A stretch of 36,455 bases of DNA from contig JARLHS010000136.1 in NCBI GenBank assembly GCA_031292115.1, positions 1-36,455 of the forward strand, read 5' to 3'. This document shows positions 18,308 to 34,307 of this stretch, piece after piece. The position numbers and the translations under genes were made by a program. The notes beneath the pieces were generated by a model. It was not told the origin of the DNA and did not search any database. It saw nothing but the letters and a program-made list of their open reading frames with translations. Within the stretch, counting starts at the first letter, position 1; the number at the start of each line of letters is the position of its first letter. The stretch comes from Clostridia bacterium. Its GTDB lineage: Bacteria; Bacillota; Clostridia; Oscillospirales; Ethanoligenentaceae.

Positions 18308-19071
18308 AAATCGCCGTGGTAACCGGCGCGTCCTCCGGTATAGGCAGAGCCTTTGTGCTCCAGCTGGACGCCGACGAACCATTCGACGAGATCTGGGCCA
18401 TTGCGTTGGAAGAGGATTTACTGGGGGAACTCCAGAAGGAAGTCCACGCAAGAATACGTCCGTTTGCGATGGACTTTTGCAACCGGGAGAACCTTACGCG
18501 CTATGGGGAAGCGCTGAAAGCCGTCGCGCCGGATGTGGCGGTTCTGGTCAACGCCAGCGGCTTCGGTATCTTCAAGACGTTTGAAAAGACCTCGCTGGAC
18601 CGGTTGTTCGGCATGGTCGATGTCAACGCCCGCACCATGATGGGAATGACGTATCTGACGCTGCCCTACATGAGGCAAGGCGGCCGCATCTACAACATGG
18701 GCTCCGGTTCTTCATTTCAGCCAACGCCGTACGCGCTGATCTATGGGGCGACAAAGGCATTCGCGCTGAGCTTTTCCCGCGGTCTGAACGTGGAGTTCAG
18801 AAACGGCCGCCGCGGCATTCGTGTGATGGCGGTCTGCCCGCTTTGGGTAAAGACCAATTTCTTTAAGATGGCCGTGTCGGATAAGACCATTTCTTATTTC
18901 AGCAAATGGGTGGAAGCGGCGGACGTGGTGAAAAAGGCGCTAAAGGATATGCGACGCGGCAAGGACGTCTCCATCCTGGGATTCAATATGCAGATGCAGG
19001 TGCTGGGCGTCAAGCTGCTGCCGGCCGGCCTGGTGATGAAAATCTGGTGCAAACAGCAAAAGCAGGGATGA
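18304..19071 (+). CDS. Short-chain dehydrogenase/reductase in the E2 operon
   Basis: A 255-aa classical SDR oxidoreductase using NAD(P)(H). The cofactor motif TGASSGIG is at residues 7-14, NASG at 83-86, the catalytic Ser in MGSGSS (about 136), and Tyr147-x3-Lys151 in YGATK. It overlaps the lipoyl gene before it and the E2 core gene after it by 4 bp each, so its expression is tied to the two halves of E2. That is an unusual place for an SDR. A diol or hydroxyketone dehydrogenase that makes the substrate for the E1/E2 complex would fit, as butanediol dehydrogenase does for acetoin, but the substrate is not readable from sequence. Confidence 0.9.
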   Translation: MKIAVVTGASSGIGRAFVLQLDADEPFDEIWAIALEEDLLGELQKEVHARIRPFAMDFCNRENLTRYGEALKAVAPDVAVLVNASGFGIFKTFEKTSLDRLFGMVDVNARTMMGMTYLTLPYMRQGGRIYNMGSGSSFQPTPYALIYGATKAFALSFSRGLNVEFRNGRRGIRVMAVCPLWVKTNFFKMAVSDKTISYFSKWVEAADVVKKALKDMRRGKDVSILGFNMQMQVLGVKLLPAGLVMKIWCKQQKQG

Positions 19072-19790
19072 ATCCCCACCAGCCGGAAATGAGGGAGCTG
19101 TTTATGTCGATGGAACAAAAGGCAAAACGGCTGCGCAGGGTGATCGCAGTCAATATGGTGAAAAGCTGGCAGACATCGCCCAAGTGCGATTACCTGATGA
19201 AAGTGAACGCAGAGCCCATGATGGTGTTTCGCAAATCCTTTAGTGAAGCGAACGGCGTTAAAGTCGACTTTCTAAATCTGGTGATGAAGGCCGCCGCTAC
19301 AGCACTGAAAGAGTTTCCTTATGTGAACTCGTCCTACGATTCCGAAAACCATGTACATAGGATGCACGAGGAAGTGAACGTGGGCTTTGTGATCTCCGTG
19401 GACGACGGACTTCTGGTGACAAACACGAAGGGAACGGATCGGCTGGATCTCACCGCGCTGAGCCGCGAAACGGAACGACTGATCGAGGGCTCGAAAAACA
19501 GTGGGCTCAACATGGACGATATTACCGGCGGCACGTTCACGATCAATAACATGGGCACATACAAGCGTCTTGTCCAGCACACCGCCATCATTAACCAGCC
19601 GGAATTGGCTATATTGTCCATGTATGCGATCACGGACGAGCCGGCGGTCAGGGATGGCGCCGTGGTTATTCAAAAAAGTATGAACCTGATGTTGTCGGCG
19701 GATCACAGGGTTATCGACGGAAAGATGGCTTGCGACTTCCTCACAAGAATCGTCGGGCTTCTGGAAAACCCGGAAAGCCTGACACAATAA
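19068..19790 (+). CDS. E2 acyltransferase catalytic core without lipoyl or subunit-binding domain
   Basis: A 240-aa protein equal to only the catalytic domain of a 2-oxoacid or acetoin dehydrogenase E2, which moves the acyl group from lipoyl-lysine to CoA. The active-site motif DHRVIDG (H213, D217) is intact, as are the core motifs FTINNMGTYKR and the INQPELAIL stretch. The N-terminus MNPHQPEMRELFMSMEQKAKRLRRVIAVNM goes straight into the core; the lipoyl domain is supplied by the gene at 18056 and no peripheral subunit-binding domain is found. The start at 19068 overlaps the SDR stop (ATGA). An internal ATG at 19104 with GAGGGAG upstream is an alternative. Confidence 0.9.
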   Translation: MNPHQPEMRELFMSMEQKAKRLRRVIAVNMVKSWQTSPKCDYLMKVNAEPMMVFRKSFSEANGVKVDFLNLVMKAAATALKEFPYVNSSYDSENHVHRMHEEVNVGFVISVDDGLLVTNTKGTDRLDLTALSRETERLIEGSKNSGLNMDDITGGTFTINNMGTYKRLVQHTAIINQPELAILSMYAITDEPAVRDGAVVIQKSMNLMLSADHRVIDGKMACDFLTRIVGLLENPESLTQ

Positions 19791-19811
19791 AATTAAACGG
19801 AGGGTACTGTT

Positions 19812-20204
19812 ATGAAATTTCTCGATGCGGAGTGGTTTGAAGAACACAAGAAGCTGGCCTGCGCTATGTTTAGCGAAAAAAACCGCAACAACGTGGAACT
19901 GGTGGAAGTCTACGAGAACTGCTACGGTCAGGACAAAACCATCTGGACTCATTACAAACTGGTGGACGGGATAGCCGCCATCGTGGAACGCGGCGAAGGT
20001 GAGGACGACATCCCGGAGGCGCAGTTCCGGGTGTTTGGCGACTACCAGCATTACGTACAGGTGTGCCAGGGCAAGCTGGATCCCAATAAGGGCATCGTGA
20101 CCGGCAAATTCACGTTGGAGGGCAATCTTATGAAGGCCATGGGTATGCTGGGTACCTATGCCAAGGTTACTGCGGCCAAGAAGGTTCCTGGCATGGAGTT
20201 TTGA
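19812..20204 (+). CDS. SCP2 (sterol-carrier-like) domain protein
   Basis: A 130-aa protein matching the SCP2 fold in its second half: WTHYKLVDGIAAIVERGEG early, FRVFGDYQHYVQVCQGKLDPNKGIVTGKF-type segment in the middle (about 75-105), then LEGNLMKAMGMLGTYAKV. SCP2 domains form a tunnel that binds lipids, acyl-CoA or other hydrophobic molecules. The gene lies between the E2 core and E1 alpha, 21 bp after E2, with a GGAGGGTACTGTT leader. Its presence suggests that the pathway handles a hydrophobic substrate or acyl intermediate rather than only acetoin. Function is inferred from fold similarity. Confidence 0.75.
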   Translation: MKFLDAEWFEEHKKLACAMFSEKNRNNVELVEVYENCYGQDKTIWTHYKLVDGIAAIVERGEGEDDIPEAQFRVFGDYQHYVQVCQGKLDPNKGIVTGKFTLEGNLMKAMGMLGTYAKVTAAKKVPGMEF

Positions 20205-20249
20205 AAATCCGAGCTTCCACCTAACTGCATCAAGCAAGGAGTGATAGAA

Positions 20250-21224
20250 TTGGATAAAGAGGATTATTTGGAGCTTTACCGGGTCATGGTACGTATCCGT
20301 AAATTTGAGCAGCAGGCCACTGATTCTTTTGAGATTGGCGATATTCCCGGTATGGTGCATCTTTCCATGGGGCAGGAAGCCACCGAAGCGGGAGCCTGCA
20401 GTGTGCTGAAAAAGACGGATTATATCACCAGCACCCACCGCGGCCACGGCCACATGATCGCCAAGGGTGGGAAGACCGACCGTATGATGGCAGAGCTCTG
20501 TGCCCGGCGCGACGGCTACTGCCGCGGCAAGGGCGGTTCCATGCATATTTCCAGCATCGAAATCGGTATGCTGGGCGCAGACGGCATGGTGGGCGCGGGC
20601 ATGCCCATCGCGACTGGCGCGGCTCTTGCGAGCTGGATTCGGGGAACCGACGATGTGACCGTCTGCTTCTTTGGCGACGGCGCATCCAACGAGGGGCTGT
20701 TCCACGAATGCCTGAACTTTGCGGCGCTAAAAAGCTTGCCCGTGGTGTTCCTCTGCGAGAACAACCTGTATGCTATTTCCACCAGTACGAAGCGCTCGAT
20801 GAAGGTGCAGGATGTGGCCTCCCGTGCTGCGGGTTACGGGATCCCTGGCGTGATTGTGGACGGCAACGATGTGCTGGCGGTGCGGGAAGCCACCTCCGAA
20901 GCGGTGGCACGGGCAAGACGCGGCGAAGGCCCGACCCTGATCGAGGCCAAGACCTACAAGCATCACGGCCATTTTGAAGGAGATCCCGCCGACTACCGTC
21001 CCCAAGAGGAAGTACAGCTATGGCTCGATAAGGATCCAATTCCCCGTTATGCCAGGTATCTTGTGGAAAGCGGCATTGCGGTGGAGGGTGAGATTGCAGC
21101 CATCGACGGTGAGATTGCAGCAGAGATTGCCAAGGCGGTCGAGTTCGCGCTTGCCTCAGAGCCTCTCGATTCTAGGGAAACCTGTATGGACGTCTATTCG
21201 GATATCGTAGAGGAGGGAAGATAA
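20250..21224 (+). CDS. 2-oxoacid/acetoin dehydrogenase E1 component, alpha subunit
   Basis: A 324-aa thiamine-diphosphate-binding subunit of the AcoA/PdhA type; with the beta subunit it decarboxylates a 2-oxo acid or cleaves an acyloin and loads the acyl group on the lipoyl carrier. STHRGHGHMIAKG, RGKGGSMHI, and the ThDP motif GDGASNEG (about 142-149) ending in CENN are all present. HHGHFEGDPADYR resembles acetoin dehydrogenase alpha subunits. The TTG at 20250 is preferred to the GTG at 20241, which directly abuts AAGGAG (20235-20240). It overlaps the beta gene by one base (TAATG). Substrate specificity cannot be decided from motifs alone. Confidence 0.9.
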   Translation: MDKEDYLELYRVMVRIRKFEQQATDSFEIGDIPGMVHLSMGQEATEAGACSVLKKTDYITSTHRGHGHMIAKGGKTDRMMAELCARRDGYCRGKGGSMHISSIEIGMLGADGMVGAGMPIATGAALASWIRGTDDVTVCFFGDGASNEGLFHECLNFAALKSLPVVFLCENNLYAISTSTKRSMKVQDVASRAAGYGIPGVIVDGNDVLAVREATSEAVARARRGEGPTLIEAKTYKHHGHFEGDPADYRPQEEVQLWLDKDPIPRYARYLVESGIAVEGEIAAIDGEIAAEIAKAVEFALASEPLDSRETCMDVYSDIVEEGR

Positions 21225-22216
21225 TGGCAAAGCGAGTGTCAACAAGCAAGGCGCTCAACAATGCGCTGGACCGCGCCATGGCTTTCGACGAGAGGGTATT
21301 CTGCATCGGTGAAGACATCGGCATTATGGGCGGCACGTTCGGTGTCACAGCCGGCCTTCTGGATAAGTACGGCGAAAAGCGGGTCATCGATACACCAATT
21401 TCCGAGGCCATGTTCATGGGCGCGGCGGTGGGTGCGGCAGCCCGCGGCCTTGTGCCGGTGGTGGAGATCATGTTTTCAGACTTTGTGACCTACTGCTTCG
21501 ACCAGGTGGTCAATCAGGCGGCCAAGATGCGCTATATGTACGGCGGCAATATCGAAATGCCCATTGTCATCCGCATGCCGGGCGGCGGCAGCGTACAGTC
21601 AGCAGCTCAGCATTCTCAGAGCCTCGAAGGGCTGTTCGGACACATTCCCGGCCTCAAAATCGTCATGCCGTCCAGCCCCTCCGATGCGCGCGGGCTGCTG
21701 CTCTCGTCCATAACGGACAGGAACCCGGTCATGTTCTTTGAAACGAAATCTCTCTATGCCAAAGTGGAAAAGCTCGAGGAGGAATATGACCCGATCCCGC
21801 TGGGCACCGCATCCGTCAAGCGCGAAGGTGGAGACGTCACCATTGTGGCCACCGGTCCCTGTGTGCTCAAGGCGATGAATGCGGCCAGCGCGCTTGCCGA
21901 GGAAGGAATTGAGGCAGAGGTGATCGATCCGCGTACGCTGTATCCGCTGGATACGAAAACGATCTTCGGCTCCGTGGAAAAGACCGGAAGGCTCCTAATC
22001 GTCACCGAGGAATGTAAACGGGGGGCATGGAGTGCGGAGCTTTCGGCAGAGGTAGCGGAAAAGCAGTTTGTTGCGCTCAAGGCTCCCATCGCCCGCGTCG
22101 GCGCGCTCAATACGCCGGTACCGCTGGCCAAGCAGCTGGAGGACTATTACCTGCCGCAGACGGAAAACATTGTGGACGGCGTGAAGAGTATCTTAAAGGA
22201 ATCAGTAATTAAATAG
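21224..22216 (+). CDS. 2-oxoacid/acetoin dehydrogenase E1 component, beta subunit
   Basis: A 330-aa transketolase-like subunit completing the E1 heterotetramer. GEDIG (residues about 29-33), FGVTAGL, DTPISEAMFMGAAVGAAARGLVPV and RMPGGGSVQSAAQHSQSLEGLF cover the pyrimidine-binding domain. The C-terminal transketolase domain follows (VIDPRTLYPLD, then VTEECKRGAWSAEL). The length is that of AcoB/PdhB. GAGGAGGGA lies just before the ATG. It is the last gene of the operon; no dihydrolipoamide dehydrogenase (E3) gene follows, so E3 must come from elsewhere in the genome. Confidence 0.92.
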   Translation: MAKRVSTSKALNNALDRAMAFDERVFCIGEDIGIMGGTFGVTAGLLDKYGEKRVIDTPISEAMFMGAAVGAAARGLVPVVEIMFSDFVTYCFDQVVNQAAKMRYMYGGNIEMPIVIRMPGGGSVQSAAQHSQSLEGLFGHIPGLKIVMPSSPSDARGLLLSSITDRNPVMFFETKSLYAKVEKLEEEYDPIPLGTASVKREGGDVTIVATGPCVLKAMNAASALAEEGIEAEVIDPRTLYPLDTKTIFGSVEKTGRLLIVTEECKRGAWSAELSAEVAEKQFVALKAPIARVGALNTPVPLAKQLEDYYLPQTENIVDGVKSILKESVIK

Positions 22217-22543
22217 GCAAAGATGACGGCAAACCGCTGGCAGGAATGGCGGTAAAGGGTGCCCGCGCCTGTCTGCATTGCGAATTGACCGATGCGGAGA
22301 AACATTGCGAGAGGTGATGTCCCTCCTATATAACAGAATAAGTTTAGTATATCTTACGTAAGCACGAAGCAATTCTGTTATATATTGCGCATGTGCATTT
22401 GCGAAGCAAAATTTTGCACGCGCTTTAGCGTTTAGCCCGTTCTCTATATACAGCTGCTCTTATATTAATTATTTATTCAGTTGTATATAGTACCCTGAGT
22501 ACACTCCGTGAGTGAGAGCTGTATGGGGGCACAAACCAAATAA
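22217..22543. other. Gene-free, palindrome-rich segment after the E1/E2 operon
   Basis: No coding region is supported. The segment holds a 13-bp perfect inverted repeat TATATAACAGAAT (22327-22339) / ATTCTGTTATATA (22372-22384) around the palindrome CTTACGTAAG (22353-22362). Next come GCAAAATTTTGC (about 22406-22418) and a second long inverted repeat CTATATACAGCTG (22444-22456) / CAGTTGTATATAG (22478-22490) with one mismatch. Then comes the right direct repeat. The foldback density resembles ends of IS200/IS605-like or MITE elements, but no transposase is present. Confidence 0.6.
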
Positions 22544-22740
22544 GCTGGGAGCGCTCCACACTGGCAGTGTGTGGGTCACGAGCTCGAGTCTCATATGCTC
22601 CGCAAAAAAAGTAAGCCACAAGGCCAAAAACCTTGTGGCTTTACATATAAGGCCGGGTACTTGAAGAAGAGTCCAGAAATCGCAATGAGGGTGTTTTCGA
22701 AGGAGAGCACCCTCGTTTTTTGCCCGTTTTAAATTGCTTT
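22544..22740. repeat. Direct repeat DR-R: tRNA-Ala 3' fragment plus hairpin
   Basis: Right copy of the repeat of about 198 bp, in the same orientation as 12642-12840. It shows the same tRNA 3' portion (GCTGGGAG, loop CTGGCAG, T-arm CTCGAGTCTC, acceptor ATGCTCCGC), the same hairpin (22613-22642) and the same trailing sequence. Beyond it a minus-strand gene tail encoding KIMREIKREKAI-stop (stop at 22731-22729) sits exactly where rpoN ends in the left copy. Confidence 0.8.
22613..22642 (+). terminator. Strong hairpin after the tRNA fragment (right copy)
   Basis: AAGCCACAAGG / CCTTGTGGCTT stem with CCAAAAA loop, identical to the left copy; probably the original terminator of the tRNA transcript. 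Confidence 0.8.
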
Positions 22741-22815: not shown

Positions 22816-22953
22816 ATGAGCAATAATATCAGAGAGGCGCAATTTGAACACATTGATCTTTTCGGTAATCCGGCGCGGTTTACAAAATCGCTTATTGGCA
22901 GATGTACTCTTCCAGCAGGTATTTATTTCAATCCAAATTCAATTTATGGCTGA
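22816..22953 (+). pseudogene. LPD28-like mobile-element protein fragment (45 codons)
   Basis: A short frame from ATG 22816 reads MSNNIREAQFEHIDLFGNPA, then RFTKSLIGRCTLPAGIYF. This resembles the start of LPD28-type domains found in clostridial conjugative elements (LF..PALFTN.RI...T.P.GLY pattern). It stops after 45 codons, well short of a full domain, and overlaps the end of the minus-strand lipoprotein gene by 10 bp. Read here as a truncated leftover of an integrative element. Confidence 0.4.
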
Positions 22954-24005
22954 GGCCAGCTTGATTTTGAAATGTTCAGATAGACCTCCTCCGTTTTGTG
23001 GAACCCATCCTTTATAACAGTGCTCATCATGTTGTCCTTCGTAACAGCGATGGGTTCGATGCAACTGTAGGGTACGTCGTACTTGTTGTCTGAAATCCGA
23101 TCGGGAACCTTGACGCTTTTTCCCTTCGCCATATCGACTGCAAAGTCGGCAGCGCGGACGGCGAGCTCTTTAATCGGCTTGTAGACCGTCATGAGCTGCT
23201 GACCCTCCACGATGCGTTGACAGGCCGAAAGGTCTGCGTCCATGCCCACGACCGGGACCGCCGGGATCAGGTGGTTTTCCGCAAGCGCCGTGATGGCGCC
23301 GCTCGCAAGGCCGTCATTTTCGGCGATCACAGCGTCGATTTTCGTGCTGTCCTGCAGCAGTTTTCGGATATCCTGAGCCGCATGGTCAGCCATCCAGTCG
23401 GTTTCCGAAAAGTCTCCCACCACTTTGATCTCCTTACGGCTGATGTAGGGGTTGAGTACCTCGCGGATGCCGCGCGAGAGCATTACGGTGTTGTAATCGG
23501 TCGTGGGGCCGGCTACAATGACGTAATTACCGCGCGGCTTTACCTGCGTGATGGCTTTTGCCTGCAGCCCACCCACCTTTACGCTGTCGAAGGTGACGTA
23601 GAGATCCACGTTCGCGTTCATAACAAGCCGGTCGTAAGATATGACCTTGACACCTGCCGCCTTTGCGAGCGAAACGCAATCCGCAGCTTTATACGCGTCG
23701 TTTGGGATGATGACCAGCACAGAAATACCCTGAGCAAGCATGTCACGGACCTGGCTGTACTGGGTATCCGAATTCTCGTAGCACACATCGCAGATCGTCC
23801 TAACCCCGAGTCGCTTGGCTTCCGAAATGAAATCGTCGCGGTCGATATACCAGCGTTCCTCCTTAAGGGTAGCCATCGACAGACCGATGACGAGTTTTTT
23901 TTCCGGCTTTGATGCGGTCTGCCGCACGGCACACCCAGGCGGAACCAGGGCCCCGCCGAGGAGCACAAGCACGAGCAGAATCGGTTTGATCAGTTTCAGA
24001 CGCAT
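22944..24005 (-). CDS. Sugar-binding lipoprotein (XylF/periplasmic-binding family) in the sensor operon
   Basis: A 353-aa secreted lipoprotein with signal peptide and lipobox VPPGC (Cys25). The mature part is a type-I periplasmic binding protein of the xylose/ribose group (KKLVIGLSMATLKEERWYIDRD, then VISYDRLVMNANVDLYVTFDSVKVGGLQAKAI). It closely parallels the binding protein at 28622 ([30 protein letters not shown]), so the two are likely paralogues. GGGGGAGG precedes the ATG. It is the fourth gene of the sensor-kinase-regulator operon, 23 bp after the regulator, and is not next to transport genes on its own strand. It may deliver sugar to the importer or to the sensor. Confidence 0.88.
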   Translation of the reverse strand: MRLKLIKPILLVLVLLGGALVPPGCAVRQTASKPEKKLVIGLSMATLKEERWYIDRDDFISEAKRLGVRTICDVCYENSDTQYSQVRDMLAQGISVLVIIPNDAYKAADCVSLAKAAGVKVISYDRLVMNANVDLYVTFDSVKVGGLQAKAITQVKPRGNYVIVAGPTTDYNTVMLSRGIREVLNPYISRKEIKVVGDFSETDWMADHAAQDIRKLLQDSTKIDAVIAENDGLASGAITALAENHLIPAVPVVGMDADLSACQRIVEGQQLMTVYKPIKELAVRAADFAVDMAKGKSVKVPDRISDNKYDVPYSCIEPIAVTKDNMMSTVIKDGFHKTEEVYLNISKSSWPQP

Positions 24006-24028
24006 TTGCTCGCCTCCCCCGGATGAGT

Positions 24029-25636
24029 TTATAGATTTTTGTCCAGCGCGGAAGACTTGTATTCGGTCGGCGTCACGCCTACAATTTTTTTAAAAATCCG
24101 ACTGAAATAGTTGGGGTCGGAATAGCCGATCTGATAGCAGATTTCCTTGTTGGCACAGTTGCGGTCGTCCAGCAGCTTTTTTGCCTTTTCAATGCGGAGA
24201 GCCGTCAGGTAATCGATGAAATTCGAGCCGGTTTCATCCTTGAAAAGCTTGCTGAAGTAGCTTGGGCTGATGTTGACCGCGCGTGAGACGTCTTCAAGTG
24301 TGATCTCCGAGCAAAAATTCTGTTCGATATACTCCTTCGCGTCGACGATAACGCAGGAAAGCCTTTTGTCACGGGCGCCGGCAATGTCCGCGCAGAGCTG
24401 CCGGATACGGTTCTTTGACCATACGCGCAGCGTGCTGAGATCCCGGATCGCGAAGAAATCGTTGAGATAATCGTTGCCCGTCTCACCAATGACGCCATAT
24501 TCCTTTGCCGTGCGGCTCAGCATGACGGTCAGCTCGGTGAGGCCCGAGGCGATCTCCTGCAGATTTCCCTTCGTATGCTCCGTGAGCCACTCGAAGATAT
24601 GGTCGAACGCCATCAGGCAGACATCCGGCTCGTTGAGCGTGACACTTTTTAGCAGCAGCTTTTCCTTGTTTTCAGGATATCCCTGCCGTGCGCCGTTTTC
24701 AAGCGGCGCGTCATTGATATGGTACAGCCCACCGGCTTTTGCATAGCCGATGGCTCGCACGGATTCTTCGAAGGAGCGATAGACGCTGCCAAGGTCCGGG
24801 TAGTAGCGGCCGATCCCAATAACAAAATCGATATTTTCGTTGAGCGCCCTGAGCTTACTATATATTTCGGAAGCAACCTCCATCGCCCCAATACGCTGCC
24901 GGTATTCGTCCGCACCGGCGGCACAGGGTACAAAGACAAGGATGCGGTTGAGCATGAGCGGCCCGACGATACCGGTACAGCACTCCTTGATGACCTCACG
25001 GAACGCAGGGTAAAGCTTCTGGCCCTTGATGGAGGTGCCGATTTTATTGGCGATGCCGTCCTTCCCGTGCGTTTCGCCAAACTCGACGGTCATTATATAG
25101 CCGCCCTCCGAACTGATGTCGAGGATTTTACGGAAGGAGATCATCTCCACCGTATGGTCGTCGGAAAAGAGCATTGAATAAATGAAGCCGCTTTCGAGTG
25201 CGGGCAGAATAAAAGCCATCTTTTCCTTGAGCTCGAGTTCGAACTCTAGGCTTTTGTGTTCGTTTTCCTTGATCCGGATAGCATTTTCGAATGCCGCAAT
25301 CAGCTTTGTGCGGCTGATCGGCTTGTTGAGATAGTCGATCGCACCGAGCTGAAGGGCCTCTTTTGCAAAATCGAACTTTGCGTACGCGGTAACGACGATG
25401 AACAACGCGCCCGGATGGATGCGCTTGATGTCAGCAATCGCGTCGAGCCCACTGATGCCTGGCATACAGATATCCATGAGAACGATGTCCGGCCGGAAGA
25501 CGGCAGCTTTTTCAATCGCTTCGCGGCCGGAGCGAGCGGTCTGCGTCTCCAGTGAGCCGGTCATGTATTTTTCCACGATGAACAGGACGGAGTCGAGCAC
25601 GATTTGCTCGTCGTCGACAATCAGCAGCTTACTCAT
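24029..25636 (-). CDS. YesN/AraC-type response regulator
   Basis: A 535-aa two-component transcription factor. The receiver domain (1-125) has the acidic pair D8-D9, the phospho-acceptor D55 (DIVLMDICMPG), T83 and K105 (LNKP), so it should be phosphorylated by the neighbouring kinase. A long middle domain follows, of the type common in YesN regulators. The C-terminal AraC HTH pair carries ITLEDVSRAVNISPSYFSKLFK and EICYQIGYSDPNYFSRIFKK. Its ATG overlaps the end of the kinase gene by 8 bp. It most likely activates the divergent sugar ABC operon at 28622-32609, as YesN does for xylFGH in Clostridium. Confidence 0.93.
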   Translation of the reverse strand: MSKLLIVDDEQIVLDSVLFIVEKYMTGSLETQTARSGREAIEKAAVFRPDIVLMDICMPGISGLDAIADIKRIHPGALFIVVTAYAKFDFAKEALQLGAIDYLNKPISRTKLIAAFENAIRIKENEHKSLEFELELKEKMAFILPALESGFIYSMLFSDDHTVEMISFRKILDISSEGGYIMTVEFGETHGKDGIANKIGTSIKGQKLYPAFREVIKECCTGIVGPLMLNRILVFVPCAAGADEYRQRIGAMEVASEIYSKLRALNENIDFVIGIGRYYPDLGSVYRSFEESVRAIGYAKAGGLYHINDAPLENGARQGYPENKEKLLLKSVTLNEPDVCLMAFDHIFEWLTEHTKGNLQEIASGLTELTVMLSRTAKEYGVIGETGNDYLNDFFAIRDLSTLRVWSKNRIRQLCADIAGARDKRLSCVIVDAKEYIEQNFCSEITLEDVSRAVNISPSYFSKLFKDETGSNFIDYLTALRIEKAKKLLDDRNCANKEICYQIGYSDPNYFSRIFKKIVGVTPTEYKSSALDKNL

Positions 25637-27188
25637 TCGTATCCTCCGGTCCTTTCAGCGGCAACCTGACCGTTATTCGCGTCCCGTCGTTCTCACGGCT
25701 TTCCATTTCGATCACATCGGTGGGCGTTTCTGCATGATAAAAAAGCATCAGTCGCCCGACGACATTGCGCAACCCGATGCTGTGGCCGGTGGAAGGGACG
25801 TCCTGATCGGCGACCGGAGCAGCGTCGCCGGCTCGCATGGCAAGCAGGTCGTTAATGATCTCCCGCTGTATCCCGCAGCCGTTGTCGGCCACCGTCACGC
25901 ACACGGTTTCGCCGTCCAGTGCTGAAGAAAGGGTGATGATGCCGCCGTTCTCGCGCAGGCCGATGCCATGTGCGAAGGAATTTTCTACGATCGGCTGCAA
26001 AATCATACGCGGCATCTGCACATCCGGCAAACAGCCGTCAAGCTCTTTGCGGTAGGTGATCCGATCCGCAAAGCGCTCCTTGAGCAGATAGACGTAGTTG
26101 TCGATATTGTCAATTTCAAGGCGCAGCGTGGAGGGGCTGTCGATATCGACGAGGTTGTAGCGCAGCGACTGGGAAAGCCGCTCCATAAAGGCCTGCGTGC
26201 GCTCGGCACCCTCGAAGAGCGCGAGCTGCATCCCGGCGTTGAGAGTATTGAACATGAAGTGGGGATTAATCTGCGCCTGCAGAGCCCGCAGCTGCGCTTC
26301 GCCCAGCATCGAGCGCATTTTGAGGTTTTGCATCTGCTGCTCCTGAAGGCGGCTCTCGACCTCCGCGTTCTGCCGGATCTCAATGAGCTGCCGGCGAATA
26401 CTGTCGGCCATCCGGTTGAAGGACTGTGCAAGCACCATGACCTCATCGTTGGAACGGACGTCGACATCCGGAATGTCGTAGTTGCCCTGGGCGATTTCAC
26501 CCGCCGCTCTGGACAGACGGATGATCGGCTCGGTGATGTTGAAGGAGAACAGAGCGATGAGGATAATATTGACACCCATTGCGATAAGGATTACAAGCAT
26601 GTTAAACGTCTGGAGAACTCCAAGCCGGTTGTTAAGCTGCAGATAGTTCTCGTTGTTCACCTGAAACTCGTAGATTTTCAACTGGCTGATATAGCCGTTG
26701 ATGTAATCGAAGAGCTGGCTCGCATAATTGAAATCAGAACTGTAGCCATTGATATCGCGGCCGCGCTTTTCATATTCGGCCGCGTCCGTTTCAGCGAGGT
26801 AAGTGACGATCATACCTTTGATATCGGTGAGCAGCAGGTCGCCCTCGTCGTCTGTCAGTCGGGTGTCCAACTTGTCTAAAAGATCGTGCAGCTCATTGCT
26901 TTTGCTGAGGTACGTTAGAAGGTCTTCGGAATGGCTGGTCGTCAGGTAGGCTTTCAGGCTGGCTTCGACGTCGTTTACGCTTTCACTCAGCCGGGTCAGC
27001 GCGATGTCGCTCGAGAATATCTGATTGATCTTGTTCGTCAGAACATGCGTGCAGTTGTATGTATACAGACTGATGGAATTGACCAAAACGAAGGTAATGG
27101 AAAAAAACAACACCAGTTTTTTGCGTATGATGTTCTTGCTGCGCATATTCCGGATCAGGGTTCGCATCTTTTCGAGCACTTTTTTCAT
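25629..27188 (-). CDS. LytS/YesM-type sensor histidine kinase
   Basis: A 519-aa membrane kinase. It starts with a basic segment and one transmembrane helix (KLVLFFSITFVLVNSISLY). An extracellular helical sensor of about 150 residues follows, then a second helix, a HAMP domain (RLSRAAGEIAQGNYDIPDVDVRS region), a coiled coil, the His_kinase motif with the phospho-accepting His in INPHFMFNTLN, and an ATPase domain with VENSFAHGI and VADNGCGI. The ATG at 27188 is preceded by GAGGAGGG; the frame is open for 59 codons further upstream only by chance, overlapping the sensor gene. It lies 10 bp after the sugar-binding sensor gene, with which it probably forms a signalling complex. Confidence 0.92.
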   Translation of the reverse strand: MKKVLEKMRTLIRNMRSKNIIRKKLVLFFSITFVLVNSISLYTYNCTHVLTNKINQIFSSDIALTRLSESVNDVEASLKAYLTTSHSEDLLTYLSKSNELHDLLDKLDTRLTDDEGDLLLTDIKGMIVTYLAETDAAEYEKRGRDINGYSSDFNYASQLFDYINGYISQLKIYEFQVNNENYLQLNNRLGVLQTFNMLVILIAMGVNIILIALFSFNITEPIIRLSRAAGEIAQGNYDIPDVDVRSNDEVMVLAQSFNRMADSIRRQLIEIRQNAEVESRLQEQQMQNLKMRSMLGEAQLRALQAQINPHFMFNTLNAGMQLALFEGAERTQAFMERLSQSLRYNLVDIDSPSTLRLEIDNIDNYVYLLKERFADRITYRKELDGCLPDVQMPRMILQPIVENSFAHGIGLRENGGIITLSSALDGETVCVTVADNGCGIQREIINDLLAMRAGDAAPVADQDVPSTGHSIGLRNVVGRLMLFYHAETPTDVIEMESRENDGTRITVRLPLKGPEDTNE

Positions 27189-27198
27189 GACGCCCTCC

Positions 27199-28206
27199 TC
27201 AGCCTCCGGATGTATAGCTGACGAGGTTGATCCGCGTGATGGTGTAGACCCCCGTATCAACGAAGGATGGTATCGTTTTTTCATTGATGCTGTCGACGAG
27301 ATTGGCAATGCAGGCGTAGCCGGTTCCGCTGGAGTTCTCATACACCGAGCCCAGCAAATTTCCATTCATGATATAGTTTCGAATCTGCTGCGAGTTGCTG
27401 TAACCGACCACTCTTACATTGTTTTCCTTATTCAGATCAATCAGCACCTGGACAATTTCGAGCGTATCGTCGGCGTCGGTGCTGACCACCATATTGACCT
27501 CCGGATGCTCGTTGAGAATGCCCCGTATGATCCTCTCAGCTCCGAAGTATTCGGAGCTGACAGTCTGAATGGTGTCCAGTGAAATGGAGCTTTTGCCGGT
27601 GGTAGCCTGACGAAAGCCGGCGAGCAGAGAGGCGCGCGCATCGGCGTTACCGGCGTAGTTGCCTCCGATCACAATGGCCACTTTGGTTGTGCCGATTGCG
27701 TTTTCAACGATCAGGTTTCCTTGGCTGAAACCGGCCTTGTAGCTGTCCGGGCCGACAAACGCCTGGCGTTTGCTTTTTTTTACGTCCGATTCGATGGTGA
27801 TGACGCGGATACCCTCGCCGACCGCTTTGTCGATCAGCGGCGTAAATTTGCTCTGATCCGTCACATACACGGCAATCCCGTCAACATGGCTTGCAATTGC
27901 AATATTGAAATAACGCAGCTCCTCTTCCTCGTCGCTGATGACGGCCCCGTTATATTCGATGGCTGCGTTGAGCTTCGCACCAGCGCTCTCTGCGCCGGCA
28001 CGGACCGATTTCCAGAAGGAATCGTCTAGGTTCTGCGCGATCAGCACGAAATGATACCGCTTCGGCTTGGCTTGCGAGTCATTTTCACCGTTGCCTATCC
28101 GGGGCTGGATCTCATTGAAATTATATGCAAAGCCTACGAAACAAAAACACAGACAGATGGCCAGCATGGCTAGGGCGATTCTCAGGTATCTGTTCATCAA
28201 CTCCAC
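27199..28206 (-). CDS. Membrane-anchored sugar-binding sensor protein (XylFII-like)
   Basis: A type-I periplasmic binding protein of about 335 aa held in the membrane by one N-terminal helix (YLRIALAMLAICLCFCFVGF) without a lipobox cysteine. The core shows YHFVLIAQNLDDSFWKSVRAGA, VTDQSKF and VVSTDADDTLEIVQVLID segments typical of ribose/xylose-binding folds. It is the first gene of the operon with the LytS kinase and YesN regulator. In C. beijerinckii an XylFII protein in this position binds xylose and controls LytS. Start: GTG 28206 has AAAGGGA eight bases upstream; ATG 28197 is the alternative. The ATG at 28281 falls at the predicted transcription start and is excluded. Confidence 0.88.
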   Translation of the reverse strand: MELMNRYLRIALAMLAICLCFCFVGFAYNFNEIQPRIGNGENDSQAKPKRYHFVLIAQNLDDSFWKSVRAGAESAGAKLNAAIEYNGAVISDEEEELRYFNIAIASHVDGIAVYVTDQSKFTPLIDKAVGEGIRVITIESDVKKSKRQAFVGPDSYKAGFSQGNLIVENAIGTTKVAIVIGGNYAGNADARASLLAGFRQATTGKSSISLDTIQTVSSEYFGAERIIRGILNEHPEVNMVVSTDADDTLEIVQVLIDLNKENNVRVVGYSNSQQIRNYIMNGNLLGSVYENSSGTGYACIANLVDSINEKTIPSFVDTGVYTITRINLVSYTSGG

Positions 28207-28285
28207 CGATCCGTTCCCTTTTGCTTCGGGTTTATTCGGTGTTTCCCCGGTCTGTCCACGCAGAATAACAGTTATATCCATTCAT

Positions 28286-28314
28286 ATAGTAGAGCAATGT
28301 TTCAATAATGTCAA
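28286..28314 (-). promoter_or_regulatory. Promoter of the sensor-kinase-regulator operon
   Basis: On the minus strand TTGACA (28314-28309) is followed after 17 bp by TACTAT (28291-28286). Transcription would start near 28279, about 73 bp before the sensor start. Confidence 0.7.
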
Positions 28315-28432
28315 CAGCTTTCTGGCCGTCAATGCCTTAATATTTATGTATTATGTCTTTGATACGCCTTTTTTTGTCTTAAAATTGTGCTAGCATTTTC
28401 ATCCCGCAGACAAAACACGATAAGGCTGGTAA

Positions 28433-28447
28433 GAAATTCATAATTTC
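28433..28447. promoter_or_regulatory. Palindrome next to the sugar-operon promoter
   Basis: GAAATT-CAT-AATTTC is a perfect inverted repeat ending five bases before the -35 of the sugar ABC operon, the usual place of an activator site. The YesN-type regulator is the obvious candidate protein; unproven. Confidence 0.4.
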
Positions 28448-28452
28448 GTTTA

Positions 28453-28481
28453 GTGACACAGAACGCAGAAATTGGTAAAAT
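28453..28481 (+). promoter_or_regulatory. Promoter of the sugar ABC operon
   Basis: GTGACA (28453-28458), 17-bp spacer, TAAAAT (28476-28481) preceded by TGG (extended -10). It would give a leader of about 135 nt before the ATG at 28622; nothing else is seen in the leader. Confidence 0.6.
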
Positions 28482-28621: not shown

Positions 28622-29689
28622 ATGAAAAAGATTCTGGTAGCGCTTCTCGCTCTGGCAATGGTCTTTACCCTGGTGTCCTGCAACAAGAGTTCGTCCTCCA
28701 AGGTGCTCGTTGGCGTCTCCATGCCCACCCAGTCCCTTCAGAGGTGGAATCAGGACGGCAGCAACATGGTCAGCCAGCTCAAATCCGCAGGGTATGATTC
28801 CATCCTCCAATACGCCAACAACGACGTCACCACGCAGGTTCAGCAGATTGAGAACATGATCACAAAGGGCTGCAAGATTCTCGTGATCGCCGCCATTGAC
28901 GGTTCGTCGATGACCGATGTCCTCGCCACCGCCGCAAAGAACAACGTCAAGGTTATCGCGTACGACCGGCTTATCATGCAGACCCCAAACGTTGACTATT
29001 ATGCCACATTCGACAACTACAAAGTCGGGCAGCTTCAAGGCAAGTACATAGTCGACCAGCTCAAGCTCGACAGTGCGTCGGGGCCCTTTAACATCGAGAT
29101 TTTCGCGGGCTCCCCGGACGACAATAACGCCAAGTTCTTCTTTAACGGCGCCATGGATGTCCTGAAACCCTACATCAGCAGCGGCAAGCTCGTCATCAAA
29201 AGCGGCCAGAAGGACTTCAACGTGGTTGCCATTACGAGCTGGACTTCTGCGACGGCCCAGTCCAGAATGGATAACCTCATCACGGCCAACTATGCCAACG
29301 GTACGAAGCTCGACGCCATCCTTTCCCCGAACGACAGCATCGCGATCGGCATCGTGGCCTCCCTGCAGAGCCATAACTACGGCACAGCCGACAAACCCTA
29401 TCCGATCCTGACCGGCCAGGACTGCGACAAGCCGAACGTCAAAGCCGTCCTCGCGGGCCAGCAGTCCATGTCAATTTTCAAGGATACCCGTAAGCTCGCA
29501 AGCGAAACCGTCACGATGATCACCGCGATGGAAAAAGCCCAAACTCCCGAAACGAACGACAGCAAGACCTACAATAACGGTGTCAAGGTCGTACCGACCG
29601 AGCTTCTGACTCCTGTATTCGTAGATAAATCAAACTACAAGTCCATTCTGATCGACAGCGGATACTACAAGCTTTCCGACATCCAGTAG
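28622..29689 (+). CDS. Sugar ABC transporter substrate-binding lipoprotein (XylF/ChvE-like)
   Basis: A 355-aa lipoprotein with a signal peptide ending at lipobox TLVSC (Cys20). The mature protein is a type-I sugar-binding protein (VLVGVSMPTQSLQRWNQDG, IAYDRLIMQTPNVDYYATFDN, LTGQDCDKPNVKAVLAGQQSM), closest in pattern to xylose- or multiple-sugar-binding proteins (XylF, ChvE). The ATG at 28622 has a perfect AAAGGAGG eight bases upstream. It is the first gene of an operon with the ATPase and permease, divergent from its regulators. The chain looks complete with no odd features. Confidence 0.93.
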   Translation: MKKILVALLALAMVFTLVSCNKSSSSKVLVGVSMPTQSLQRWNQDGSNMVSQLKSAGYDSILQYANNDVTTQVQQIENMITKGCKILVIAAIDGSSMTDVLATAAKNNVKVIAYDRLIMQTPNVDYYATFDNYKVGQLQGKYIVDQLKLDSASGPFNIEIFAGSPDDNNAKFFFNGAMDVLKPYISSGKLVIKSGQKDFNVVAITSWTSATAQSRMDNLITANYANGTKLDAILSPNDSIAIGIVASLQSHNYGTADKPYPILTGQDCDKPNVKAVLAGQQSMSIFKDTRKLASETVTMITAMEKAQTPETNDSKTYNNGVKVVPTELLTPVFVDKSNYKSILIDSGYYKLSDIQ

Positions 29690-29892: not shown

Positions 29893-31431
29893 ATGGACAA
29901 TTATATCCTGCAGATGGAAACAATCACCAAGCTGTTTCCAGGGGTCAAAGCACTGGACACTGTCAACCTGAATGTTCTGCACGGCGAAATACACGCGCTG
30001 ATCGGTGAAAACGGCGCCGGAAAATCGACGCTGATGAACGTGCTCAGCGGCGTTTACCCGCACGGTACCTATACCGGTAAAATCATTTTTGAAGGCAAGG
30101 AGTGCATCATCCGGCACATCAGAGACAGCGAGCGGCTTGGCATCGCGATCATCCACCAGGAGCTGGCGCTGATCCCGAGCCTTACGATCGGTGAAAATAT
30201 TTTTCTTCGAAATGAGTGCGCGCACGAAGGCATCATTAACTGGGACGAGACTCACACGAAAGCCCGCGCTCTGCTTAAAAAGGTGGGGCTTGCGGAAAAT
30301 ACCTATACGCTTGTACGCGACATCAGCGTGGGCAAGCAGCAGATGGTTGAAATCGCCAAGGCACTGTCGAGAAAGATCAAACTGCTGATCCTAGACGAGC
30401 CGACTGCTTCACTCAACGAAAATGAGTCAAACAATCTTCTCAACCTTCTACTTGAGCTCAAAAAGGAAAACATTACGTCGATTCTGATTTCGCACAAACT
30501 CCAGGAAGTCATCCGCGTGGCCGACCACATTACGGTCATCCGCGATGGTGCGGCAATCATGACGCTCGACAAAAATAGCGACGATATCAGTGAGGACAAC
30601 ATTATCCGCGGCATGGTCGGCCGCCGCCTGACCGACCGCTATCCCAAACGTACGCCAAACATCGGCGGAGTCGCCTACACAGTCGATCATTGGAACGTAT
30701 TTGATCCAATGATCGCCGACAAGCAGGTCATTTACGACGCAAGCTTCAACGTGCGCAAAGGAGAGATTCTCGGTTTCGCGGGGCTGATGGGCTCGGGCCG
30801 TACGGAGCTTTCGATGAGCCTGTTCGGTCGGTCGTACGGCAAGCGAATCTCGGGGCAGATTTTCAAGAGCGGCCGCGAGATTCAGGCCCATACCGTGCGG
30901 CAAGCGATTCAGAATGGCATTTCGTATTCGACAGAGGACCGTAAGACGGCCGGCCTCGTCCTCCAGAACGACGTAAAGGAAAACATCACGCTCGCGGGGC
31001 TGCAAAAGGTAGCGCGGCACGGCGTCGTCAACAGCGATGAGGAAATCAGGGTAGCTTCGGATTTCTGCAAAAAGCTCAACATCCGCACGCCAAGTGTCTT
31101 CCAAAAATGCGTGAACCTTTCCGTCGGCAACCAGCAGAAGGTTGTACTGAGCAAGTGGATTTTCACGGGACCCGACCTGCTGATCCTCGACGAACCAACG
31201 CGCGGCATCGACGTCGGGGCCAAATACGAAATTTACACGATTATGAACGAGTTGGTCGCCGAGGGAAAGTCGGTCATCTTCATCTCGTCTGAAATGCCGG
31301 AATTGCTTGGCATGTGCGACCGTGTCTACGTGATGGAAGAAGGCCGCATCGTTGGCGAGCTCTCCGGAAAAGAGATCACGCAGGAAGCGATCATAAAGGC
31401 CATTCTATCGAGCAAACGGGAGGCAGTTTAA
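29893..31431 (+). CDS. Sugar ABC transporter, duplicated ATP-binding protein (XylG/MglA/GguA-like)
   Basis: A 512-aa protein with two ABC cassettes in tandem, the CUT2 sugar importer type. Cassette 1 has Walker [10 protein letters not shown] (38-46), the signature-like [14 protein letters not shown] and Walker [10 protein letters not shown]. Cassette 2 has the degenerate Walker [11 protein letters not shown] usual for the family, [14 protein letters not shown] and [20 protein letters not shown]. The family specifics are intact. It follows the binding-protein gene after a 203-bp spacer with a stem-loop and overlaps the permease gene by one base (TAATG). Confidence 0.94.
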
Positions 31432-32609
31432 TGGGAACCTTTATAAACCTCGTCAAGAATAATATAAGGCAGTATACCATGGTCATCGCGCTGATCCTCG
31501 CCATGGTCATCTTTCAAATCGCAACCAACGGCGTTCTCCTGCTTCCCATGAACGTGACGACCCTGATCCTTCAGAACGCTTATGTCTTCATCCTTGCGGT
31601 TGGCATGATGGTCCTGCTCATCAACGGCGGCAATATCGATCTTTCGGTCGGCTCGATTGTCGCGTTCGTGGGGGCTATCATGGGCGTCATGATGATCACC
31701 CATAAAATGCCCCTGTGGATCGCAATTGTCGTGGCACTTGCCATTGGGTTCCTTATTGGTGCGTGGCAGGCATACTGGGTCGCTTATGTCCGTGTACCCG
31801 GCTTCATCGTGACCCTGGCCGGCCAGCTGATTTTCCGCGGCCTGACGAACAACATCCTGTCCGGCCAGTCCCTTGCGCCATTCTCAAGGGATATGGTTGC
31901 CATCAGCGCGGGCTTCATTCCTGACTTCATCCGCGGCAACAACCAGGGCATCAATATAACGGCGATGGTCCTCGGTATGCTTGTCACCATCGTATACATC
32001 ATCTTGCAGATACGCAAGCGGATGTACCGGCGTAAGTATACAGAGGAAATGGTTCCCTTCCAGCTTTTCATCGTCCAGATTGTCATCATTGCGGCGCTGA
32101 TTATGGTCTGTGCCTACTGGCTCGCAAGCTACGAAGGCATCCCGATCATTTTTATCATCATCGCTGTGCTCGTGGCTGCCTATCAGTATTTCACCTCCAA
32201 GACAGTGTCCGGCCGTTACATATACGCAATGGGTGGAAACGAGAAGGCCGCTCAGCTCTCCGGCATCAATACCAATAAAGTGCTCTTCTGGTGCTATGTC
32301 AACATGGGTGTGCTCGCGGCAGTGGCAGCCATCGTCACCACCTCGCGGCTCGATGTGGCGTCGCCGCTCGCCGGGCAGAACTACGAGCTCGATGCCATTT
32401 CAGCCTCCTTCATTGGCGGCGCTTCCATGTACGGCGGCGCGGGCACCATCGTCGGTGCCATCATAGGGGCGCTATTCATGGGCGTGCTCAACAACGGCAT
32501 GTCCATCCTCGGCGCCGGCACCGACATCCAGATGCTTATCAAGGGCCTTGTATTGCTGCTGGCTGTTGCATTTGACATCTTCTCGAAGTCACGGGCAAAG
32601 GCTTCCTGA
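31431..32609 (+). CDS. Sugar ABC transporter permease (XylH/GguB-like)
   Basis: A 392-aa polytopic membrane protein with about ten hydrophobic segments, forming the homodimeric channel of the CUT2 importer. The segments LINGGNIDLSVGSIVAFVGAIMG and VPGFIVTLAGQLIFRGLTN and the late ELDAISASFIGGASMYGGAGTIVGAIIGALFMGVLNNGMSI-like stretch are hallmarks of the RbsC/XylH family. The ATG at 31431 is chosen because GGGAGG precedes it and it overlaps the ATPase stop; the frame is open further upstream within the ATPase gene. The length is longer than RbsC and matches XylH/GguB, supporting a pentose role. Confidence 0.93.
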   Translation: MGTFINLVKNNIRQYTMVIALILAMVIFQIATNGVLLLPMNVTTLILQNAYVFILAVGMMVLLINGGNIDLSVGSIVAFVGAIMGVMMITHKMPLWIAIVVALAIGFLIGAWQAYWVAYVRVPGFIVTLAGQLIFRGLTNNILSGQSLAPFSRDMVAISAGFIPDFIRGNNQGINITAMVLGMLVTIVYIILQIRKRMYRRKYTEEMVPFQLFIVQIVIIAALIMVCAYWLASYEGIPIIFIIIAVLVAAYQYFTSKTVSGRYIYAMGGNEKAAQLSGINTNKVLFWCYVNMGVLAAVAAIVTTSRLDVASPLAGQNYELDAISASFIGGASMYGGAGTIVGAIIGALFMGVLNNGMSILGAGTDIQMLIKGLVLLLAVAFDIFSKSRAKAS

Positions 32610-33119: not shown

Positions 33120-33205
33120 CAACTCTACAAAATCAGCCGGTTCGCCGCTTGACGATTATGCTTTTATTAATTACAATATAAGCATGAATGTCAAGGAGGG
33201 ATAAA

Positions 33206-33799
33206 ATGACCGGAGCTGAAAAGCTGGAATCCCTGATTCTGGAAAGCTGCGGTATTATTACAACCATGCAAGCTGACACCTACGCGATTCACCGGGAGTA
33301 TTTACGCGAGTTTGTCAGACTTGGCAAGCTCGAGCGCATTGCCCACGGCGTTTATATCGCTCCCGATGTGTGGGAAGATAAGATGATGCTCCTGCAACTC
33401 CGCAAGAATAAAATGATCTACTCCCATGAAACAGCACTGTTCCTTCATGATTTGACGGACCGTGACCCTTTGACTTATTGCGTGACGGTTCCTACCGGAT
33501 ATAACACAAGCAAGCTAACGCAGGATGGGCTGACTGTGCATACCATCAAACGAGATCTGCTAGAACTAGGAGTTTGTACGGCCAAAACCTCTTTCGGGAA
33601 TGACGTCCGCGCCTATAATATGGAGCGCACCATCTGCGACATTGTACGGGATCGCCATAAACAGGATGCCATTGTCGTGACTGACGCACTAAAAAGATAC
33701 ACAAAGCGAAAAGACAAAGGACTCAATACGCTGATGAAGTACTCGGAACTTTTCCGTATTGAAAAGGTCCTCAGAAATTATTTGGAGGTGCTTCTTTGA
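33206..33799 (+). CDS. AbiEi-family antitoxin of a type IV toxin-antitoxin system
   Basis: A 197-aa protein with an N-terminal winged helix (ESLILESCGIITTMQADTYAIHREYLREFVRLGKLERIAHGVY) and the AbiEi C-terminal domain (MIYSHETALFLHDLTDRDPLTYCVTVPTGYN, YNMERTICDIVRDRHK). AbiEi proteins repress their own operon and counteract the AbiEii nucleotidyltransferase toxin, and the pair aborts phage infection in other bacteria. AAGGAGGG lies just before the ATG at 33206. The gene itself looks intact, but the toxin that follows and overlaps its end is broken. Confidence 0.88.
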   Translation: MTGAEKLESLILESCGIITTMQADTYAIHREYLREFVRLGKLERIAHGVYIAPDVWEDKMMLLQLRKNKMIYSHETALFLHDLTDRDPLTYCVTVPTGYNTSKLTQDGLTVHTIKRDLLELGVCTAKTSFGNDVRAYNMERTICDIVRDRHKQDAIVVTDALKRYTKRKDKGLNTLMKYSELFRIEKVLRNYLEVLL

Positions 33800-34307
33800 A
33801 CACGTCCACTCAGTTAAAGCACCGGTGCGCAATCTGTCGCAGGCAAAAGGTGTACAGGCGGAGATCATATTACGGAACTTTATGCTGGAACGGTTTCTTG
33901 AAAGAATCTCTGTCTCCCCGTATCGGGAGAAGTTTATTCTAAAGGGCGGCATGCTGGTGGACGCCATGGTTGGGCTCGACACCCGAGCCACAATGGATAT
34001 GGACGCAACCATCCGAGGCATCCCAGTATCAGACGATGCCATTGCGAAAGCAATCCAAACGATTCTTGATTGCCCTGTTGACGATGGTGTCGTAATGAGG
34101 CTGCAGGGACTGGAGCACATCCATGAGGAAGCGGAGTACGCCGGAATCCGCGCGTCCATCGAAGCTGTGCTGAACAAGACACACCAAGTTATGAAAATCG
34201 ATATTACAACCGGAGATCAGATGTGTGGTCAGGTTGGAAGAAGGAAATTAAAAACTCGTTGGGGAATTTCTTTAATAGCAAACGAAGAGGAAATATTATA
34301 TGCATAA
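33796..34307 (+). pseudogene. AbiEii-family nucleotidyltransferase toxin, frameshifted and 3'-truncated
   Basis: The expected TTG start at 33796 (MNTSTQLK) overlaps the AbiEi stop. After TTAAAG the frame is lost, and the family sequence APVRNLSQAKGVQAEIILRN continues one base out of phase, so one A is missing from a short A-run. The nucleotidyltransferase core follows (FILKGGMLVDAMVGLDTRATMDMDATIRG, with GG-x-x-x and the DMD acidic pair) up to MKIDITTGDQ. There the normal sequence stops and about 28 unrelated residues lead into lgt. Full AbiEii proteins are near 290 aa, so the C-terminal half is gone. The toxin is almost certainly inactive. Confidence 0.85.

Follow-up and report, generated by a model that had tools for sequence, protein, structure and literature searches.

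A four-gene sugar-sensing operon with an anchored XylF-like fourth protein beside a ChvE-GguAB importer: a possible receptor-adaptor relay in Clostridia

Introduction

Among the described sugar sensors, LevQRST of Streptococcus mutans appears to be the closest in layout and logic to the system discussed here. In the accessible text of its description, a kinase and a regulator are flanked by two membrane-associated binding proteins encoded in the operon levTSRQ, and similar operons are given for C. acetobutylicum and Dorea longicatena (PMC3043104), so that four-component sugar sensing is already in print. We have analysed a contig from an incomplete assembly of a Clostridia bacterium (GCA_031292115.1, contig JARLHS010000136.1; 61% complete, 208 contigs), whose whole length of 36,455 nucleotides is called the window. 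It carries four minus-strand genes for a sensor solute-binding protein (SBP), a LytS/YesM-type histidine kinase, a YesN-type response regulator and a second, XylF-like SBP, and next to them a divergent sugar importer. Judged by alignment, the canonical aldose pocket residues are lost in the first of these proteins and intact in the fourth, which suggests that the fourth protein, and not the one on the kinase side, now does the sugar binding.

The likeness to LevQRST lies in the order SBP-kinase-regulator-SBP, and the two were compared by layout and description. LevQ, encoded last, is required for output and thought to set specificity in the portion of PMC3043104 at hand. According to the same portion, LevQRST controls a fructanase and a phosphotransferase system with no functional ATP-binding cassette (ABC) transporter nearby, whereas the operon in the window adjoins chvE-gguAB. 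LevS is predicted there to have up to five transmembrane segments, while two hydrophobic stretches are seen by eye before the HAMP domain of the window kinase. Both LevQRST binding proteins are anchored; in the window, the sensor has a predicted N-terminal helix and the fourth protein a weak lipobox.

The XylFII-LytS-YesN system of Clostridium beijerinckii (structures 5xsj, 5xss and 5xsd) shares with the window its first three genes and the sensor fold. However, XylFII keeps the pocket residues D/R/D/Q where the window sensor has E/L/S/E, and the available part of PMC9601137 names H22 of XylFII as a ligand contact. In the excerpts of PMC10384115, sensing and uptake are each served by one SBP in that system, two in all, and the window has three. 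AraP (6sw4) and GanP (6gq0) of Geobacillus stearothermophilus also have the sensor fold found in the window and, unlike the window sensor, keep D/R/D/Q. In CuaDSR of Ruminiclostridium cellulolyticum, signalling falls to a dedicated lipoprotein SBP that binds the kinase and is distinct from the one used in transport, as in the layout proposed below, but the sensing part of CuaDSR has a single SBP and the sugar is cellobiose (PMC10384115, accessible sections). Finally, Parageobacillus thermoglucosidasius AOT13_11420-11435 unites in one locus an arabinose-binding-type protein, a YesM-YesN pair and a ChvE-type importer in the text available from PMC13068155, and differs in having no fourth gene between the regulator and ChvE, as read from its consecutive locus tags only. 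In the literature searched, mostly without subscription papers, no account of this exact arrangement or of a pocket-less sensor was recognised among the matches listed.

Results

The sensing operon

The original prediction of a sensing operon like XylFII-LytS-YesN, next to a CUT2 importer that diverges from it, is supported, with four minus-strand genes and an importer found. The sensor SBP, of the XylFII/GanP/AraP type, lies at 27199..28197 (inferred likely start ATG 28197; the longest open reading frame, ORF, runs from 28281). It is followed by the kinase at 25629..27188, with HAMP, His_kinase and HATPase_c domains; its start is ATG 27188 with GAGGAGG upstream, and the listed ORF start at 27365 is an upstream extension. 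The regulator, with a receiver and an AraC-type helix-turn-helix, occupies 24029..25636. A second anchored binding protein had been proposed as a fourth gene, and it is present at 22944..24005, with a weak lipobox (VPPGC, by eye). As read from the sequence, 10 bp separate sensor and kinase, kinase and regulator overlap by 8 bp, and 23 bp separate the regulator and the fourth gene, which sits between the regulator and a terminator. A sigma-70-like promoter for the sensing operon (TTGACA-17-TACTAT) was matched by pattern in front of the sensor at 28286..28314 on the minus strand, where 28314 is also the end coordinate first given for the locus; five promoter-like sites were seen in 551 bp against 1.6 expected from shuffles. 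Behind the fourth gene, a pattern match to an intrinsic terminator (13 pairs and a T run) lies at 22613..22641 on the minus strand, with the longest stem of five terminator-like sites in 2001 bp (2.2 expected). On this layout, the tightly packed sensor-kinase-regulator-lipoprotein operon appears to be real.

The first protein keeps the fold and loses the pocket residues

The structural model of the sensor (mean predicted local distance difference test score, pLDDT, 88.2) is nearest to GanP and XylFII, with AraP further down. Its N-terminal helix of about 35 residues is a predicted anchor, no lipobox was seen in it, and AraP aligns over this hydrophobic region as well. In the sensor of the window, E, L, S and E stand at the positions of D89, R141, D215 and Q235 of the ribose-binding protein RbsB. 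None of 51 sensors accompanied by a fourth gene keeps all four residues, and 37 of them keep none; all four are kept in 7 of 8 sensors lacking a fourth gene, in the three solved sensors and in 5 of 5 related transport proteins. When 32 columns conserved in 16 reference proteins were considered, the eight most-lost ones included the equivalents of Q235, D89, F214, D215 and R141, and several glycines and core residues were kept. Across the sensor clade, pocket columns have a mean percentile of 0.45, about the variability of an average column; for the 16 reference proteins the value is 0.11. The first pocket aspartate is the residue that differs in PDB entry 5xsd, titled "XylFII-LytSN complex mutant - D103A". 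Taken together, these alignments indicate that the canonical aldose pocket residues are lost in the first protein.

When 66 sensors and relatives were placed in one tree, a branch with a support of 99 set apart the 51 fourth-gene sensors. An XylFII-type query matched 51 of 391 genomes of the class and brought few further sensors without a fourth gene; its seven best class matches are the very seven fourth-gene-free sensors that keep all four residues, an overlap to be expected from kinship. In a second set, a separate draw of 398 phylum genomes queried with an Alkalibacterium fourth protein (41 genomes matched), none of 20 sensors with a fourth gene keeps the four residues (15 keep none, 3 one and 2 three), and of two without it L143 keeps four and L134 two. 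This set holds near-identical rows (L153/L154, L159/L160 and L162/L169/L170), and L158, whose regulator reads as two ORFs, was set apart. Sensor rows shorter than 220 aa (200 aa in the second set) or with weak matches were dropped, after which some fourth-gene loci, L007 and L076 among them, have no sensor row.

The fourth protein keeps the XylF pocket and departs from transport proteins

The fourth protein is XylF-like but stays under the NCBIfam xylF cut-off (298.8 against 389.55 bits). Its model (mean pLDDT 91.8) is nearest to 4ywh, a solute-binding protein of Actinobacillus succinogenes, followed by the xylose-bound E. coli XylF 3ma0. At ten positions that we take to be the ligand positions of XylF, the window protein reads RWDRDNWNDK, as does E. 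coli XylF; no paper on the ligand residues of XylF or P46 came to hand in the literature search. A cross-check with the pocket positions of the RbsB alanine scan, as far as PMC5557919 was accessible, gave the same answer. Among 53 members of the fourth-gene clade, the position of RbsB F16 is W in all 52 that have a residue there; every one of the 53 has D, R, D and K at those of D89, R90, D215 and Q235, and 52 have N at that of N190. The second set agrees, with W, D, R, D and K kept in 20 of 20 and N or D at the N190 position.

In a tree of 115 binding proteins, a 57-row clade (SH-aLRT support 100) unites 53 of the 56 sensor-linked fourth genes with 4 solo copies. No transporter-adjacent XylF falls inside it, and E. 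coli XylF lies outside; the three remaining sensor-linked fourth genes, from Alkalibacterium and Halolactibacillus, are found elsewhere among the XylFs. L003 was dropped from the trees (it equals L057), as were SBP rows shorter than 250 aa. The original prediction regarded the fourth protein as a paralogue of the importer's own binding protein, which stands in a distant sense only, as the two share 29% identity and the fourth protein is XylF-like; a recent duplication of the importer's binding protein is ruled out by this identity and by their separate clades. The cysteine column of the lipobox is kept in 45 of 57 clade members, and the strict lipobox pattern is found in 22 of 53. Nine fourth proteins (L004, L067, L069, L072, L073 and L075-L078), judged by eye, lack a match to the lipobox but begin with a hydrophobic segment, as if these proteins were transmembrane-anchored like the sensor. 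The solo copies (L065, L068, L070 and L071) come from one genus, have no adjoining sensor operon and precede a gene resembling a glycogen branching enzyme (its sequence was seen for L065).

The fourth-gene clade also differs from transport proteins outside the pocket. Transport XylF and ChvE proteins have 47 conserved positions in common, of which 8 are lost in the clade (E52, N53, P133, N136, A138, G156, G202 and N272); the reverse test gave 2 lost of 42, and equal samples of 15 per group gave means of 8.7 against 1.8. ENPNAGGN is read at these positions in 7 of 8 transport XylFs compared (L092 differs at one) and in the window ChvE, while the window fourth protein reads RDTYTKGD and differs at seven of the eight. 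Five of the lost positions align with RbsB 51, 52, 133, 136 and 138. In the accessible part of PMC5557919, ribose transport is said to be possibly affected by D52A of RbsB, and G134 lies on a receptor-contact face. These altered residues mark a departure from transport proteins, and their reading as the loss of a contact with the permease finds only partial support.

The fourth gene recurs with the sensing operon

When the fourth protein was searched at E<=1e-60 in genomes of the class, order and family (that of the window included), matches were found in 63 of 391, 7 of 394 and 1 of 4 genomes, respectively. Gene maps of 75 loci, of which L003 (Thermoclostridium caenicola, its kinase mapped as two ORFs) is the same locus as L057, show a recurring order of sensor, kinase, regulator and XylF-like protein, often followed by ChvE-GguA-GguB. 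In some loci a second XylF or another SBP with ABC genes stands behind the four-gene module. The divergent layout of the window is not unique to it, being present also in L018, L153, L154 and L171 (the last with its sensor in pieces). In L067 and L073 a glycogen synthase-like gene, and in L019 and L020 a very large GH31-like gene, all named from sequence, stand behind the module in place of an importer.

Counted from the first possible ORF start codons and not from mapped starts, the median gap is -4 bp between regulator and fourth gene (60 bp or less in 49 of 52) and 188 bp between the fourth gene and the next importer gene (minimum 94, n=32); a lone XylF between a regulator and ABC genes is 163, 189 or 432 bp away. 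Its position and spacing place the fourth gene within the sensing unit.

Searching from the sensor gave a similar picture. Among 27 strong class matches (E<1e-38), 26 are followed on their own strand, within 0-4.5 kb, by a XylF-like gene. Of these genes, 25 are members of the fourth-gene clade, while that of G474:C19 (L063) is a lone transport XylF; the contig of the 27th (L128) ends within an apparent start of the fourth gene. Weaker bins gave 5 of 8, 5 of 8 and 9 of 33, bringing the total to at least 45 of 76, a figure that includes lone XylFs such as L079 and L081 and misses by its cut-off the fourth gene of L127. Conservation of the fourth gene with the sensor operon across genomes is thus borne out widely, though L114-L117 are sensor operons without it. 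The original prediction treated the fourth gene as an addition made at this locus and named as its counter-case a gene absent elsewhere and transcribed separately; overall, its recurrence across genomes gives a different picture, and it belongs to a clade found repeatedly with this sensor type. Gene order and homology indicate that the sensing unit of related bacteria repeatedly includes the fourth gene, which is not an oddity.

The divergent importer and the intergenic region

The importer had been named XylFGH, and here the family cut-offs of NCBIfam decide otherwise. Its plus-strand genes encode a ChvE-type binding protein at 28622..29689 (508 bits, cut-off 460; likely ATG 28622, longest ORF from 28556), a GguA-type ATPase at 29893..31431 (811.1 bits, only just passing the cut-off of 810) and a GguB-type permease at 31431..32609 (512.3 bits, cut-off 450; likely ATG 31431, longest ORF from 31314). 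As XylFGH, the same genes stay under the cut-offs (xylF 220.9 of 389.55 bits, xylG 550.8 of 723.65 bits). Because the ChvE, GguA and GguB cut-offs are passed, the importer is assigned by profile to the multiple-monosaccharide ChvE-GguA-GguB type and not to XylFGH.

A sigma-70-like promoter for the importer operon (GTGACA-17-TAAAAT, pattern match) lies at 28453..28481 on the plus strand. Three bases short of its -35 box ends a 21-bp element (28429..28449, no strand assigned), of which 20 of 21 bases are common to the divergent intergenic region of L018, the nearest relative. The local score of this match is 18.5 against 14.0 for the best of 300 shuffles, and the two regions are otherwise diverged. 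In other loci the best match was 16 of 21, where shuffles reached 17, and a search of the region for repeats as a regulator site gave none. The element is a candidate for the regulator's site.

Discussion

The gene order, its packing and recurrence, the separate clades, the pocket retained in the fourth protein and the pocket residues lost in the first are the observations on which our reading is built. We propose, with a probability of about 0.5, a four-component sugar-sensing relay where the lipoprotein would be the receptor and the kinase-side protein an adaptor. A pentose or a related aldose would bind the XylF-like, lipid-anchored fourth protein, which once loaded would dock on the membrane-anchored first protein. 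The latter, with a binding-protein fold and no sugar pocket, would act as an adaptor on the kinase, which would phosphorylate the YesN-type regulator, and this in turn would activate chvE-gguAB from the intergenic region. The nature of the sugar, the docking and the direction of signalling are what we infer from the alignments and models, together with the target and the regulator's site; most likely the module controls the divergent ChvE-GguAB importer. More broadly, the locus may exemplify a receptor swap recurrent in Bacillota, where recognition passed from a kinase-bound pseudo-binding protein without a pocket to an anchored XylF-like receptor that left transport, a generalization that we put forward only tentatively.

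Several observations weigh against this relay. The 51 sensors of the first set were gathered largely through the fourth gene (47 of them, with three found via the sensor and one from the window), and a tree of 92 sensors requires two changes for the presence of the fourth gene and a single one for the altered pocket, so that the link between pocket and fourth gene amounts to one or two events whatever the number of species. A Fisher test that set 51+20 sensors bearing a fourth gene against 8+3+2 lacking it counts related sequences as independent, and its 3 are the solved sensors, placed among those lacking the gene by assumption; in view of the changes on the 92-sensor tree, we put no weight on it. 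The pocket is altered in the absence of a fourth gene in L134 and L092 (2 of 4 residues kept in each), and the sensors of the second origin (L005, L006, L133 and L135) lose only D89 of the four. Of the eight residues common to transport proteins, 5 or 6 are still present in Alkalibacterium-like fourth proteins (L005-L007). Moreover, the RbsB residues that overlap the proposed permease region in the accessible part of PMC5557919 (A44, A70, N73, L107 and I111) align with other XylF positions than these eight. LevT, the first-gene protein of levTSRQ, is less essential, yet it is called critical for selectivity in the text available from PMC3043104. Finally, some sensor subclades share a fixed new set of residues, E, K, G and S, which fits a new ligand.

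Since such fixed sets, seen in many sensors, are equally explained by a new ligand, a sensor with two inputs is a serious rival. Here the first protein would bind another sugar, an oligosaccharide or a sugar acid, the fourth would add a pentose input and the kinase would integrate both. In agreement with this, 41 of 51 sensors retain the tryptophan that aligns with RbsB F16, and both LevT and LevQ affect specificity (PMC3043104, as far as accessible). On the other hand, the near-average variability of the pocket columns across the sensor clade speaks against it, and other subclades are hydrophobic there (Y/I/Y/I). We consider two inputs unlikely, though deserving of attention.

More doubtful is a role of the fourth protein as a second transport binding protein that feeds GguAB or another CUT2 permease and widens the sugar range. 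Its XylF pocket is intact, it is XylF-like by sequence and its operon adjoins a divergent CUT2 importer. In addition, most of the RbsB permease positions (PMC5557919, in the part at hand) miss the eight lost residues, which strengthens this explanation and weakens the relay. Nevertheless, the clade has lost those eight residues common to XylF and ChvE, seven of them in the window protein, and the window ChvE keeps all of them. The fourth gene is packed with the regulator and apart from the importer genes, and some fourth proteins exchange the lipobox for an N-terminal hydrophobic segment. In seven loci (L019, L020, L054, L067, L073, L093 and L098) no importer like that of the window is found among the genes mapped, where the map label "x" denotes no blastp match to the reference proteins used and other transporter types would not show. 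Of the three roles first suggested for the fourth protein (tuning the sensing, broadening the sugar range or feeding the same permease), the last fits worst because of the lost residues and these seven loci. Tuning comes closest, and the comparisons suggest more, namely that the fourth protein may be the sugar receptor itself. That it merely modulates, tuning sensitivity or damping the signal as a competitor for sugar close to the membrane, with the first protein still the receptor, would also account for the conserved co-location with the sensor, but it leaves the loss of the first protein's pocket residues unexplained and is very improbable.

If the relay is true, the protein to assay for the inducing sugar would be the fourth and not the XylFII-like first one, which would itself be a clear case of a binding protein that lost its ligand and yet keeps its signalling contact. 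This may also offer a molecular reason for the presence of two binding proteins in LevQRST. Such operons are found repeatedly in Clostridia and other Bacillota, and a family name would label their fourth gene a transport protein.

Other features of the window

A tRNA scan of the window gave none, and Rfam gave nothing at threshold, with one chance-level match far under its gathering score. Downstream of the terminator of the sensing operon, about 22540-22600 on the minus strand, a segment resembles by eye the 3' part of a tRNA, where ARAGORN found none and Rfam gave no tRNA match. Between gguB and lgt, at 33188-34307 on the plus strand, an AbiEi-type antitoxin gene overlaps a short AbiEii-type ORF, whose best match spans only the first half of the Pfam profile; this is probably a truncated toxin-antitoxin pair. 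At 18906-22216 on the plus strand, an ORF with the catalytic domain of a 2-oxoacid dehydrogenase E2, where Pfam detected no lipoyl domain, is followed by an SCP2-like ORF and by E1 genes, the second of which is named from sequence only. A sigma-54 factor gene lies at 12820-14106 on the minus strand.

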